From positions 1 to 64,000 of the forward strand of contig LDXO01000007.1 in assembly GCA_001443455.1 (NCBI GenBank): a stretch of DNA of 64,000 nt, given 5' to 3'. The notes under the pieces are model-generated. The model searched no databases and had not been told where the DNA came from. It saw only the letters and a list, made by a program, of their open reading frames with translations. The translations under genes and the position numbers were made by a program. Below, one piece after another: positions 9,751 through 21,993 of this stretch. How positions within the stretch are numbered: position 1 is the stretch's first letter; each line of letters opens with the position of its first letter. Origin of the DNA: Deltaproteobacteria bacterium CSP1-8 (lineage in GTDB: Bacteria > Desulfobacterota > Deferrimicrobia > Deferrimicrobiales > Deferrimicrobiaceae).

Positions 9751-11328
9751 TTACGGGGAGGCGACGGCAATTTTCTTTCGGGGTTTCCCCTTTGCTTTCC
9801 TGCTCGACTTGGTCTTCTCCTCCTCGGCGACCCACCGGTTGATGGCGTTCAGGTAGGCCTTGACCGCCGCCTCGATGATGTCCGTGGAGCTTGCCGCCCC
9901 CGCGAAGATCGTCCCGTTGTCCCGGATCCTAACCGTCGCCTCACCGATCGCGTCCTTGCCCGAGGTGACGGCGGAGAGCCCGAAGTTGATCAGTCGGAAC
10001 TTCTTCCCGACGATCCGCTCGATGCAATTGTAGGCGGCCTCGATCGGCCCGTTCCCCGTGGACGCCTCTTCGATCACCTCGTCCTGGCGCCTGAGCCTGA
10101 GGGCGGCCATCGGCGTCGCCTCCGTGCTCGAGAGGATCTGCACGTGCTCCAGCCGGTACGTCTCGGGAACCTTGAAGAGCTCCTCCTGCACGAGGACCTC
10201 CAGATCCTCGACCATCACCTCCTTCTTCTTGTCCGCCAGGTGGAGGAACTTCTCGTAGATCGCGTCCAGCTGGGAGTCGGTGAGCTTGTGCCCCAGGCCC
10301 GAGATGTGGTGCTTGAGGGCAGCCCGCCCGGATCTCGCGGTGAGGGTGAAGGTGTGGGCGGTTCCGCCCACGTCCTCGGGGCGGATGATCTCGTAGGTGG
10401 ACCGGTCCTTGATGATCCCGTCCTGGTGGATGCCGGAGGAGTGGGCGAATGCGTTCGTGCCCACGATGGCCTTGTTCCTCTGGACGGGGAGTCCCATGAG
10501 GGCCGATACCATCTTGCTCGTCTTCATGATCTCCTTCATGTTGATCCCCGTGAGGAGGTTCCCGAAGATCTCCTTCCGGGTATGGATCGCCAGGACCACC
10601 TCTTCAAGGGCCGCATTCCCCGCCCGTTCCCCGATCCCGTTCACGGTCACCTCGGCCTGCCTCGCCCCTGCGAGGATCCCCGCCAGGGTGTTGGCGGTCG
10701 CCAGCCCGAGGTCGTTGTGGCAGTGCATGGAGAGGATCACCTTGTCCAGCGCGGGGACTTTTTCCTTGAGGCGGCGGATGCGGTCCGCCATCTCCTGGGG
10801 AGTCGCATACCCCACGGTATCGGGGACGTTGATCGTCTTCGCCCCTGCTTTCACGACCGCCTCGACGGTCCGGCACAGGAAGTCGAAGTCCGTCCGCGAG
10901 GCGTCCTCGGTGGAGAACTCCACGTCGGGACAGAGGGAGCAGGCATACTTGACCGTGTCCACGCACCACTGGAGAATCTTTTCCCGATCGGAACGGAACT
11001 TCTTCTGGATGTGGATGTCCGACGTGCCGAGGAACGTGTGGATCCGCGGGCGCTTGGCGCCCTTGACGGCCTCCCACAGGGTGTCGATGTCCTTCTTGAC
11101 CGCCCGCGCAAGCCCGGTCACAACGGTTCCCTTGACTTCCCGGGCGACCGCCTGGACGGACTCGAAATCCCCCGGGGAGGAGGCGGGGAAGCCCGCCTCG
11201 ATGATGTCCACCCCCAGCGCCGCGAGCTGCCGGGCGATCTTGACCTTTTGCTCCTTCGCCAGTTTCGCCCCCGGGACCTGTTCCCCGTCCCGCAATGTCG
11301 TGTCGAAGATGAATACCCTTTCCGCCAT
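9751..11328 (-). CDS. leuA: 2-isopropylmalate synthase
   Basis: LeuA condenses acetyl-CoA with 2-oxoisovalerate, the committed step of leucine synthesis. The 525-residue protein has the catalytic start FDTTLRDGEQVPGA, the metal-binding HCHNDLG motif and a C-terminal LeuA regulatory domain (GKDAIGEATVRIRDNG), where leucine gives feedback inhibition. The ATG at 11328 follows AAGGAGGAAG. The in-frame extension upstream to 11400 is REP sequence and is unlikely to be translated. The gene stands alone without other leu genes and is preceded by a leader peptide and terminator that indicate transcription attenuation by leucine. The closest alternative would be a citramalate synthase, but the leader supports LeuA. 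Confidence 0.95.
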   Translation of the reverse strand: MAERVFIFDTTLRDGEQVPGAKLAKEQKVKIARQLAALGVDIIEAGFPASSPGDFESVQAVAREVKGTVVTGLARAVKKDIDTLWEAVKGAKRPRIHTFLGTSDIHIQKKFRSDREKILQWCVDTVKYACSLCPDVEFSTEDASRTDFDFLCRTVEAVVKAGAKTINVPDTVGYATPQEMADRIRRLKEKVPALDKVILSMHCHNDLGLATANTLAGILAGARQAEVTVNGIGERAGNAALEEVVLAIHTRKEIFGNLLTGINMKEIMKTSKMVSALMGLPVQRNKAIVGTNAFAHSSGIHQDGIIKDRSTYEIIRPEDVGGTAHTFTLTARSGRAALKHHISGLGHKLTDSQLDAIYEKFLHLADKKKEVMVEDLEVLVQEELFKVPETYRLEHVQILSSTEATPMAALRLRRQDEVIEEASTGNGPIEAAYNCIERIVGKKFRLINFGLSAVTSGKDAIGEATVRIRDNGTIFAGAASSTDIIEAAVKAYLNAINRWVAEEEKTKSSRKAKGKPRKKIAVASP

Positions 11329-11392: not shown

Positions 11393-11398
11393 AGCAAC

Positions 11399-11432
11399 AA
11401 AAAGGCCGCCGGGTGAACGGTTCCCGACGGCC
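11399..11432 (-). terminator. leuA attenuator (intrinsic terminator)
   Basis: Read on the minus strand, GGCCGTCGGG pairs with CCCGGCGGCC over a 9-base loop (one G-T pair), followed by TTTTTG. It lies between the leucine-rich leader peptide and leuA. An upstream GACGGCC near 11471-11477 could pair with GGCCGTC of the terminator stem and serve as the antiterminator. Confidence 0.75.
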
Positions 11433-11507
11433 GGAAAGCGAAACGGCCGCGGGAATCTCTGCCGGTCCCCGAGGCCGTCCGAGCGTATTGGTTATTTCGT
11501 CATGCGC

Positions 11508-11597
11508 TCACGCGGACGCGGGCCGGCACCCCCGTAGGCCCAGTAGGGCGAGGCCGCCAAGTCGAAGGATCTGCCGAGCAAGCGTCACCGGAAACAT
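11508..11597 (-). CDS. leucine leader peptide (leuL-like)
   Basis: An ATG on the minus strand at 11597 opens a 29-codon frame ending at TGA. The peptide starts MFPVTLARQILRLGG and continues LALLGLRG; 7 of 29 residues are leucine, five of them between residues 11 and 19 or close by. A terminator hairpin follows before leuA. This is the classic arrangement for ribosome-mediated attenuation, in which scarcity of charged tRNA-Leu stalls the ribosome and prevents terminator formation. The ribosome-binding site is weak (GGGACC). A chance frame cannot be excluded, but leucine enrichment plus the terminator and gene identity fit well together. Confidence 0.7.
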   Translation of the reverse strand: MFPVTLARQILRLGGLALLGLRGCRPASA

Positions 11598-11606
11598 GGT
11601 CCCATA

Positions 11607-11636
11607 AGGGTATGGGGGCGACAAAGGTCTTGTCAA
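11607..11636 (-). promoter_or_regulatory. putative leuA promoter
   Basis: A consensus -35 TTGACA is read on the minus strand at 11636-11631. TACCCT (11612-11607) stands 18 bases downstream as a weak -10. The -35 overlaps the stop codon of the DUF502 gene. The leader peptide begins about 10 bases after the -10. Confidence 0.45.
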
Positions 11637-12244
11637 GCTTGTTTTTTGGATGAGGTAAACCGTGACGGCGATGCGATCCCCACGGAAACGATGATGCGGA
11701 TCGCCTGCTCGACCGGCATGTCCAGGCGCACCACGTTCTCCTCGGGGAGGAAAAGCACCTCCCCGAAGTAGATGTGGTTGGTGGGGACGAACACGATGGC
11801 CAGCACCCTCCCCTCCCTCTCCACCGTGCCCGTGCGAAAGCCGATCGCCTGCGAGCCCTCCCTCGGGTAGTCCACCAGGACCACTTCCTTCACCGAGCGG
11901 GTGTTGTCGGGAGAGAAGGCGTCCGTCAGCTGTTTCACCGTGGAGTAGATCGTCCGGTACCAGGGGATCCGGTTGATGAACCGGTCCAGGGCGGCCAGGA
12001 CCCGCTCACCCGCGACGTTCCTCGTGAAGAACCCGACGACGAGGATGATCACCAGCCCCGTGAGAATTCCCGTCCCCGGGATGTGGTCGATACCCGGGGC
12101 AATCGTTTTCACGACGCCGTGGATGATGGGGGAGAACAGGTTGTCCACTTTCTGGAAAAACCAGACGAGGAGGGCGACGGATACCACCAGCGGTACAATG
12201 ATGAAGAGGCCGGCGAGGAAAGTGTTCTTCAGGTTTCTCTGCAC
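11633..12244 (-). CDS. DUF502 membrane protein
   Basis: The 203-residue protein has two N-terminal membrane helices (about residues 8-30 and 58-78) and a soluble C-terminal part containing the DUF502 features IPWYRTIYSTVKQ and VFVPTNHIYFGEV. The function of this widespread family is not established; plant relatives (LIKE-COV) affect vascular patterning, which says little for bacteria. It lies divergently from manC with about 42 bp between start codons, so a shared promoter region is likely, and upstream of leuA on the same strand. Confidence 0.85.
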   Translation of the reverse strand: MQRNLKNTFLAGLFIIVPLVVSVALLVWFFQKVDNLFSPIIHGVVKTIAPGIDHIPGTGILTGLVIILVVGFFTRNVAGERVLAALDRFINRIPWYRTIYSTVKQLTDAFSPDNTRSVKEVVLVDYPREGSQAIGFRTGTVEREGRVLAIVFVPTNHIYFGEVLFLPEENVVRLDMPVEQAIRIIVSVGIASPSRFTSSKKQA

Positions 12245-21570: not shown

Positions 21571-21664
21571 TGGCGGAGAGGGAGGGATTCGAACCCTCGA
21601 GGCGGGGTTTAGCCACCTACGCGATTTCCAGTCGCGTTCCTTCGGCCAGCTCGGACACCTCTCC
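21571..21664 (-). tRNA. tRNA-Ser (anticodon GGA)
   Basis: On the minus strand the acceptor stem GGAGAGG pairs with CCTCTCC, followed by discriminator G and an encoded CCA. The anticodon loop is CTGGAAA, giving GGA. A long variable arm and the T arm GGGTTCGAATCCC complete a type II tRNA. Reads UCC and UCU codons. Confidence 0.93.
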
Positions 21665-21703
21665 GCGTTTCGGACCTGCTGCGACCCTTTTGGCGAAGGA
21701 GGG

Positions 21704-21796
<93 letters not shown>

Positions 21797-21804
21797 GGTC
21801 CATC

Positions 21805-21897
21805 GGGGACATTCCCAAGGGGGACATTCCTACCGGGGACACTCCTTATCTTATCGTCGAGAAACCCAGGAGTGTCCCCGCACATAGGAGTGTCCCC
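21805..21897. repeat. compound REP-like element family 1
   Basis: Three left arms (GGGGACATTCC at 21805 and 21820, GGGGACACTCC at 21835) are followed by two right arms (GGAGTGTCCCC at 21869 and 21887). This looks like nested or repeated insertion of the family 1 hairpin between two tRNA genes. Confidence 0.8.
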
Positions 21898-21905
21898 GCC
21901 CAATC

Positions 21906-21993
21906 TGGCGGAGGGAGTAGGATTTGAACCTACGGAAGCTTGCGCTTCAGCGGTTTTCAAGACCGCCGCCTTCAGCCGCTCGGCCATCCCTCC
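21906..21993 (-). tRNA. tRNA-Ser (anticodon TGA)
   Basis: Type II tRNA on the minus strand with acceptor GGAGGGA/TCCCTCC, anticodon loop CTTGAAA (anticodon TGA), variable arm and T arm (AGGTTCAAATCCT), and encoded CCA. Reads UCA, UCG and possibly other UCN codons. Confidence 0.93.

Follow-up and report, generated by a model that had tools for sequence, protein, structure and literature searches.

A candidate leucine attenuator with tandem terminators upstream of leuA in Deltaproteobacteria bacterium CSP1-8, and similar leaders across its phylum

How might a bacterium known from its genome sequence adjust transcription of leuA, encoding 2-isopropylmalate synthase, to its supply of leucine? We approached this question in Deltaproteobacteria bacterium CSP1-8, in a 64,000-nucleotide stretch of contig LDXO01000007.1 (positions 1 to 64,000; here called the window), where a short region separates a DUF502 gene (11633-12244) from leuA, all on the minus strand. 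A preliminary description, made from the letters of the window, had noted a TTGACA box, a 29-codon leader with seven leucine codons and a GC-rich terminator with a T run before leuA, and had read these as leucine attenuation. All of them are present where it had placed them (Table 1), and a comparison of 20 loci from the same family supports the reading as right in kind. From this comparison, we consider it very probable that the leuA leader is a ribosome-mediated transcription attenuator responding to leucine. To the earlier account we add a further hairpin (T1), a small one at the stop codon of the leader, the potential of the T1 3' arm to pair with the second terminator (T2), and the close spacing of the -10 hexamer and the leader ATG.

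Conservation of the leuA leader

We searched 59 genomes for leuA, the window's own and those of 58 relatives, and obtained a match in 57. The window's family comprises 24 genomes, 20 of which have a usable leuA upstream region; these 20 loci, which are related and do not represent independent lineages, are the basis of the family counts below. The four genomes left out are G004, in which a leuA match was absent, G006 and G011, which gave distant leuA matches only, and G023 (L005), whose contig ends 90 nt upstream. The element itself is present in G006, at the end of a contig (L151).

Table 1. Features of the leuA upstream region in the window
Feature	Position	Strand	Basis
leuA, 2-isopropylmalate synthase, putative controlled gene (ATG 11328; AGGAGG at 11339-11334, a good ribosome site)	9754..11328	minus	Pfam HMGL-like and LeuA_dimer
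Predicted sigma70-type promoter (TTGACA 11636-11631, 18-nt spacer, TACCCT 11612-11607)	11607..11636	minus	TTGAC conservation and TAnnnT placement
Leader peptide ORF, 29 codons, MFPVTLARQILRLGGLALLGLRGCRPASA, 7 Leu (ATG 11597, stop TGA 11510-11508)	11508..11597	minus	Frame kept in 20/20 loci
Control codons CTC GCC CTA CTG GGC CTA (L-A-L-L-G-L); CTC and first CTA (11546-11544) invariant	11535..11552	minus	20/20 loci
Segment 1, GCCGGCCCGC, leader end, putative antiterminator 5' half	11518..11527	minus	GCCGG invariant; RNAalifold pairing with T1
Stop-codon hairpin P0 (TGAGCG...CGCTCG), nested in the antiterminator	11480..11510	minus	Folding, RNAalifold
First terminator hairpin T1; 5' arm and loop (GGGGACCGGC), segment 2; 3' arm, segment 3	11442..11479	minus	20/20 loci
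Second terminator hairpin T2 (11432-11404, GC-rich) and T tract (T run begins 11403); 5' arm and loop start, segment 4	11396..11432	minus	19/20 loci

In every family locus, as in leader-peptide attenuators generally, a short ORF with codons for the amino acid of the pathway lies between the predicted promoter and the first gene. This ORF starts with ATG and is in frame in 20/20 loci, and it contains an invariant CTC followed two codons later by an invariant CTA; the distance from the ATG to the first CTA is 42, 45 or 51 nt. CTA accounts for 32 of 101 leucine codons in the 20 family leaders, compared with 1 of 703 in 21 family leuA genes and 1 of 165 in six genes of the window. The seven leucine codons singled out earlier are present in the window but are not conserved as a set: only the CTC-x-CTA core is invariant across the family, and leaders in some genera have just two to four leucine codons. 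Because both the frame and the rare codons are conserved, we regard the leader ORF for MFPVTLARQILRLGGLALLGLRGCRPASA as genuine and not spurious.

The family alignment has indels in multiples of three before the CTA and, after it, indels that are not always so. Some of the latter break the frame, and as a result the C-terminal residues vary between genera while the RNA persists; the N-terminal half of the leader is variable as well. Stops in all three frames precede T1 in 13 of the 20 loci (per-locus chance, 0.2 to 17% by shuffling, the loci being related). In the window, the stops after the leader are TGA, TGA and TAA at +0, +8 and +16 (11510-11492). The sequences would be expected to look like this if what counts is which codons are used as far as the CTA, together with where the stop lies, rather than the peptide. 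Leader peptides can act in trans, as described for peTrpL of Sinorhizobium (PMC7298713), and attenuation could then be secondary to a small protein; given the frame shifts in the C-terminal part, where the RNA stays, and the variable N-terminal half, we think this very unlikely.

Upstream of the leader, TTGAC is found in 20/20 loci (TTGACA in 19), and an 18-nt spacer separates it from a TAnnnT -10-like hexamer. By reading, the distance from the hexamer to the leader ATG is 9 or 10 nt in every locus; an automated placement that fixed this gap at 9 for most loci shows some hexamers shifted by one. In the window, 9 nt separate TACCCT from the ATG. There is no room for a Shine-Dalgarno sequence between the hexamer and the ATG. 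Since the ATG follows the -10 box at merely 9 to 10 nt, we propose a leaderless start; the leader in the window's family is probably translated from leaderless mRNA, judging by this spacing. In the sister-family loci L016 and L017, and also in L021, the leader is longer and AGGA-like sites are present. Leaderless leader ORFs have been described for S. meliloti trpL, where the 5' end of the RNA is the ATG (PMC7298713), and for S. lividans (PMC8079986).

The TTGACA box overlaps the stop codon of the DUF502 gene (TGA 11635-11633), and the hairpins follow that gene, as they would if their role were to stop DUF502 readthrough and the ORF were spurious. Yet in 4 of the 20 family loci (L011, L013, L014 and L022) a DUF502 gene was not found upstream, and the leader and hairpins are still with leuA; together with the conserved frame and rare codons, this makes such an explanation highly unlikely. 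A different alternative is a T-box or another ligand-binding leader that senses leucine or tRNA-Leu directly. The leuA leader here is short for a T-box. At gathering scores, Rfam models matched three tRNAs only in the whole window, and neither Leu_leader nor T-box; in the leader, nothing relevant appeared up to an E value of 10. T-boxes do precede leuA in Geobacter sulfurreducens and Pelobacter carbinolicus (PMC2494555), but with these Rfam results we hold direct sensing here to be exceedingly unlikely. As the main function of the element, we have rejected a T-box or riboswitch, DUF502 terminators, a spurious ORF and a trans-acting peptide. The three tRNA genes stand in a row at 21574-21993 on the minus strand.

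Generic scans did not single out the region. A consensus scan did not flag the promoter and returned 1 terminator-like site versus 1.1 expected. Shuffled sequences fold about as well as the leader taken whole (z -0.30) but less well than the segment from the stop codon to T2 (z -2.83). As far as sequence can tell, it is conservation across the 20 loci, not generic scans, that raises the element above chance. Relatives that retain leuA but have lost the frame of the leader or the terminator, named in the preliminary description as evidence that would count against attenuation, were not seen: the frame, the leucine motif and T1 are kept in 20/20 loci and T2 is kept in 19/20.

Predicted antiterminator and paired terminators

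Segment 1, at the end of the leader, is complementary to the T1 5' arm and loop, and its GCCGG is invariant in 20/20 loci at 18 to 20 nt past the first CTA. The possible antiterminator of the preliminary description is supported, with the difference that its partner is T1, a hairpin that had been missed. We folded nascent RNA that stopped at the T1 loop, representing the ribosome as a mask, and scored the pairing as formed when at least 4 pairs were expected. With the ribosome stalled at the first CTA, segment 1 pairs with the T1 5' side in 19/20 loci; with a stall at the second CTA, or without a ribosome, it does so in 15/20. With the ribosome at the stop codon, the pairing occurs in 1/20 loci, a result mostly forced by the geometry of the mask; in L007, the stop is too far downstream to free T1 in this test. 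RNAalifold on the segment ending at the T1 loop yields the antiterminator with the stop-codon hairpin inside. Part of the antiterminator is lost in L012.

When the full RNA is folded at equilibrium, both terminators persist in nearly all loci at every ribosome position, and the masks do not discriminate. Since the terminators win at equilibrium, any switch must be kinetic and would need co-transcriptional folding, on which classical attenuators likewise rely. In most family loci, segment 1 pairs with T1 no better than in dinucleotide shuffles (window z, +0.35). Comparing own with swapped antiterminators is uninformative within the family, where segment 1 and the stretch it pairs with hardly vary. 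Among 17 hand-picked leaders from different lineages and genes, the own antiterminator was stronger, at -23.4 kcal/mol versus -19.4 kcal/mol when swapped (Wilcoxon p 2e-4, rows not independent), and in 59 further loci the own antiterminator beat the foreign mean in 57 (p 1e-10). An antiterminator that excludes the terminator, is freed by a stall and is masked at the stop thus appears in the mask, RNAalifold and swap tests and is invisible at equilibrium.

The terminator noted earlier is present but is not single, as T1 lies between it and the leader. T1 was found in 20/20 family loci and T2 in 19/20, so that the tandem pair is kept in 19/20; T1 and/or T2 were set by hand in L009, L010, L015 and L022 (T1 in L010, L015 and L022). 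The T run of T1 in the window is poor (TTTCGCTTT). The exception is L020, where T2 is lost and T1 retained and which we excluded from the T2 and coupling tests. Its leuA upstream region has an inserted-looking segment, starting with GGGACGGTCCTGAG and ending with CTCAGGACCGTCCC, in place of T2. In the window, a dispersed GGCGGGGGACACNCC repeat lies between T2 and leuA (11392-11378) and again at 37330-37316; the genome holds 6 exact and 12 one-mismatch copies, with 0 for the reversed control.

For the stems and their coupling, we aligned 21 sequences (19 family loci plus L146 and L147). The T1 and T2 stems have 95.9% paired cells, and their covariation agrees with the prediction of intrinsic terminators before the first gene. 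A further helix, in which the T1 3' arm pairs with the T2 5' arm and loop, has 92.6% paired cells; it contains 10 double-change cells versus 2.5 in shuffles (0 of 500 shuffles reach 10), and slid out of register, it is at most 60% paired. These data suggest a relay in which a freed T1 3' arm invades T2 and couples both terminators, a reading that we favor by a little. Alternatively, leucine attenuation may be real and T2 a back-up or separately controlled terminator, the likeness of the arms having come from copying and not from pairing. The T2 5' arms do resemble the T1 5' arms, a likeness sufficient in itself to produce complementarity to the T1 3' arm; T2 is also dispensable, being absent in L020, and most Desulfobacterales leuA leaders that we read have a single terminator. 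Against this, T2 positions outside its own stem stay complementary to T1: the loop columns 65, 67 and 66 are complementary in 21/21, 19/19 and 15/20 rows, respectively, and columns 65 and 67 are 89 to 95% conserved, compared with at most 53% in loop columns 68 to 73. Column 64 of T2 pairs with T1 in 21/21 rows and with its own stem partner in 15/20. A strong T2 without control would, moreover, hold leuA off. We therefore treat the back-up reading as possible but doubtful. With respect to the relay, the own coupling helix beat foreign ones in 45 of the 59 further loci (p 5e-7), which is weaker than the antiterminator result and comes from loci picked by a model that favors such arms.

Occurrence across the phylum and across pathways

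We built two covariance models, R1, spanning the leucine motif to T1, and R2, limited to the T1-T2 pair and built from leuA, leuB and ilvB leaders. R1 matched 22 of the 24 family genomes, 21 of them at E 5e-14 or better, and gave weak matches in other families to leaders before ilvB, leuB-leuA, leuA and a DAHP synthase; the R1 matches L148, L150, L156 and L157 looked like chance and were rejected. A pattern search with CTCGCNCTACTNGNNCTN over 297 genomes was too strict and returned mostly family matches. Of 395 genomes from the phylum, 141 gave an R2 match at E<=1e-3. R2 matched the window at 11397-11476 with E 9e-17, the window being part of the training set, and the leuA copy is the sole strong match in the window's own genome. 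In a control of 32 further genomes at E<=1e-3, it matched 4/4 with a Desulfobacterales-type leuA leader and 6/28 others; none of those six, when read, had a clear amino-acid-rich leader.

From the top of the R2 list, we picked 60 strong non-family matches by hand, leaving out some of similar strength (e.g., G144:C159). An upstream ORF with at least four W/F/Y or six L/I/V in eight residues was found in 49/60 loci, compared with 75/1,200 shuffles and 10/60 on the reverse strand; several of the 11 remaining loci carry three W. One locus (L203, trpE by eye) was left out of the gene assignments because its alignment row and locus sequence did not match. By NCBIfam, 49 of the 59 downstream ORFs are Trp, Phe/Tyr or Leu/Ile/Val biosynthesis genes (20 DAHP synthases, 9 ADH synthases, 13 TrpE, 4 TrpB-like, and one each of LeuA, LeuB and IlvB). 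The others are one each of aminotransferase, PaaK, acyl-CoA dehydrogenase and MurA, and 6 without a family. By reading, W-rich leaders precede 17/17 TrpE/TrpB-like genes and L/I/V-rich leaders precede 3/3 branched-chain genes.

The loci L188 to L247, from many families, resemble attenuators with two terminators in series; their leaders are rich in Trp or in Phe/Tyr, and the genes behind them encode DAHP synthase, ADH synthase, TrpE and TrpB-like proteins. TrpB-like PLP enzymes stand behind W-rich leaders at L206, L207, L211 and L230, which lends support to a role of these enzymes in tryptophan metabolism. F/Y-rich leaders with tandem terminators also precede genes outside biosynthesis (L216, L234, L240, L247 and L219): four lie before ABC substrate-binding-like proteins (by eye) and L219 lies before a phenylacetate-CoA ligase (NCBIfam). 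Among 18 sampled sister loci, Rfam gave 0/18 attenuator matches and one cobalamin riboswitch only, which adjoins an aromatic attenuator (L154:19-185, minus strand).

We see about an even chance that these loci share a phylum-wide relay design, in which a single ribosome, whether stalled or finished, sets both terminators at once before Leu, Ile/Val, Trp and Phe/Tyr genes, outside Rfam in the sample tested and leaderless in the window's family. The predicted leader peptides provide a readable amino acid regulon for a group of mostly uncultured anaerobes, each naming the signal of the gene it precedes, as with the Trp leaders before TrpB-like enzymes. R2, the covariance model for the two hairpins, can be used to annotate switches of this type. 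A relay, if true, would let a single sensing event make attenuation tighter; if it is false, the leuA leader is a new and well-supported example of a classical mechanism, with a back-up terminator that is conserved.

Proposed mechanism and relation to known systems

We postulate that transcription starts at the leader ATG or a few nucleotides away. When leucine is plentiful, the ribosome would reach the stop codon and cover segment 1 and the stop-codon hairpin; the nascent RNA would form T1 and then T2, and leuA would be off. When charged tRNA-Leu is scarce, the ribosome would stall at the rare CTA codons (or at the CTC, or the second CTA), leaving segment 1 free to pair with the emerging T1 5' arm and loop; this pairing would enclose the stop-codon hairpin. 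The released T1 3' arm may then pair with the T2 5' arm and loop, such that T2 would also fail and leuA would be transcribed.

By its sequence, the element is classical in logic and apparently new in layout, with two coupled-looking terminators, a probably leaderless start and a design that seems to be shared across the phylum and across pathways. Among open-licence papers, we recognized none that describes, for this group, either leader peptides of leuA or attenuators that combine a leader peptide with two terminators in series. The closest comparison is the leuL attenuator of the enterobacterial leu operon (Leu_leader in Rfam), whose leader contains rare CUA codons. Like leuL, the element has a short Leu-rich leader with rare CUA codons and an antiterminator opposed to an intrinsic terminator before leuA. 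Unlike leuL, it has no Rfam match, its leucine codons are interspersed and do not form a run, it has two tandem terminators and a stop-codon hairpin inside the antiterminator, and it has no Shine-Dalgarno sequence and is probably leaderless.

The LEU element of Actinobacteria is also a leader with Leu codons before leuA, but it is described as a pseudoknot, with Leu codons paired with the leuA Shine-Dalgarno sequence (PMC1262725), in place of the intrinsic terminators predicted here. The T-box of Geobacter and Pelobacter precedes the same gene in the same broad bacterial group; it is a tRNA-binding RNA without a leader peptide (PMC2494555), whereas here an Rfam match is absent. Tandem terminators with a potential antiterminator likewise occur in the rimP-leader of Gammaproteobacteria, which precedes a different gene and for which a leader peptide goes unmentioned in the passage cited (PMC2965389). 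Ribosome-mediated attenuation through a leaderless leader ORF, suggested here by sequence, is described for the trpL attenuator of Sinorhizobium meliloti; that system responds to Trp and has a single terminator in the described scheme (PMC7298713), whereas the leuA leader carries Leu codons and two.
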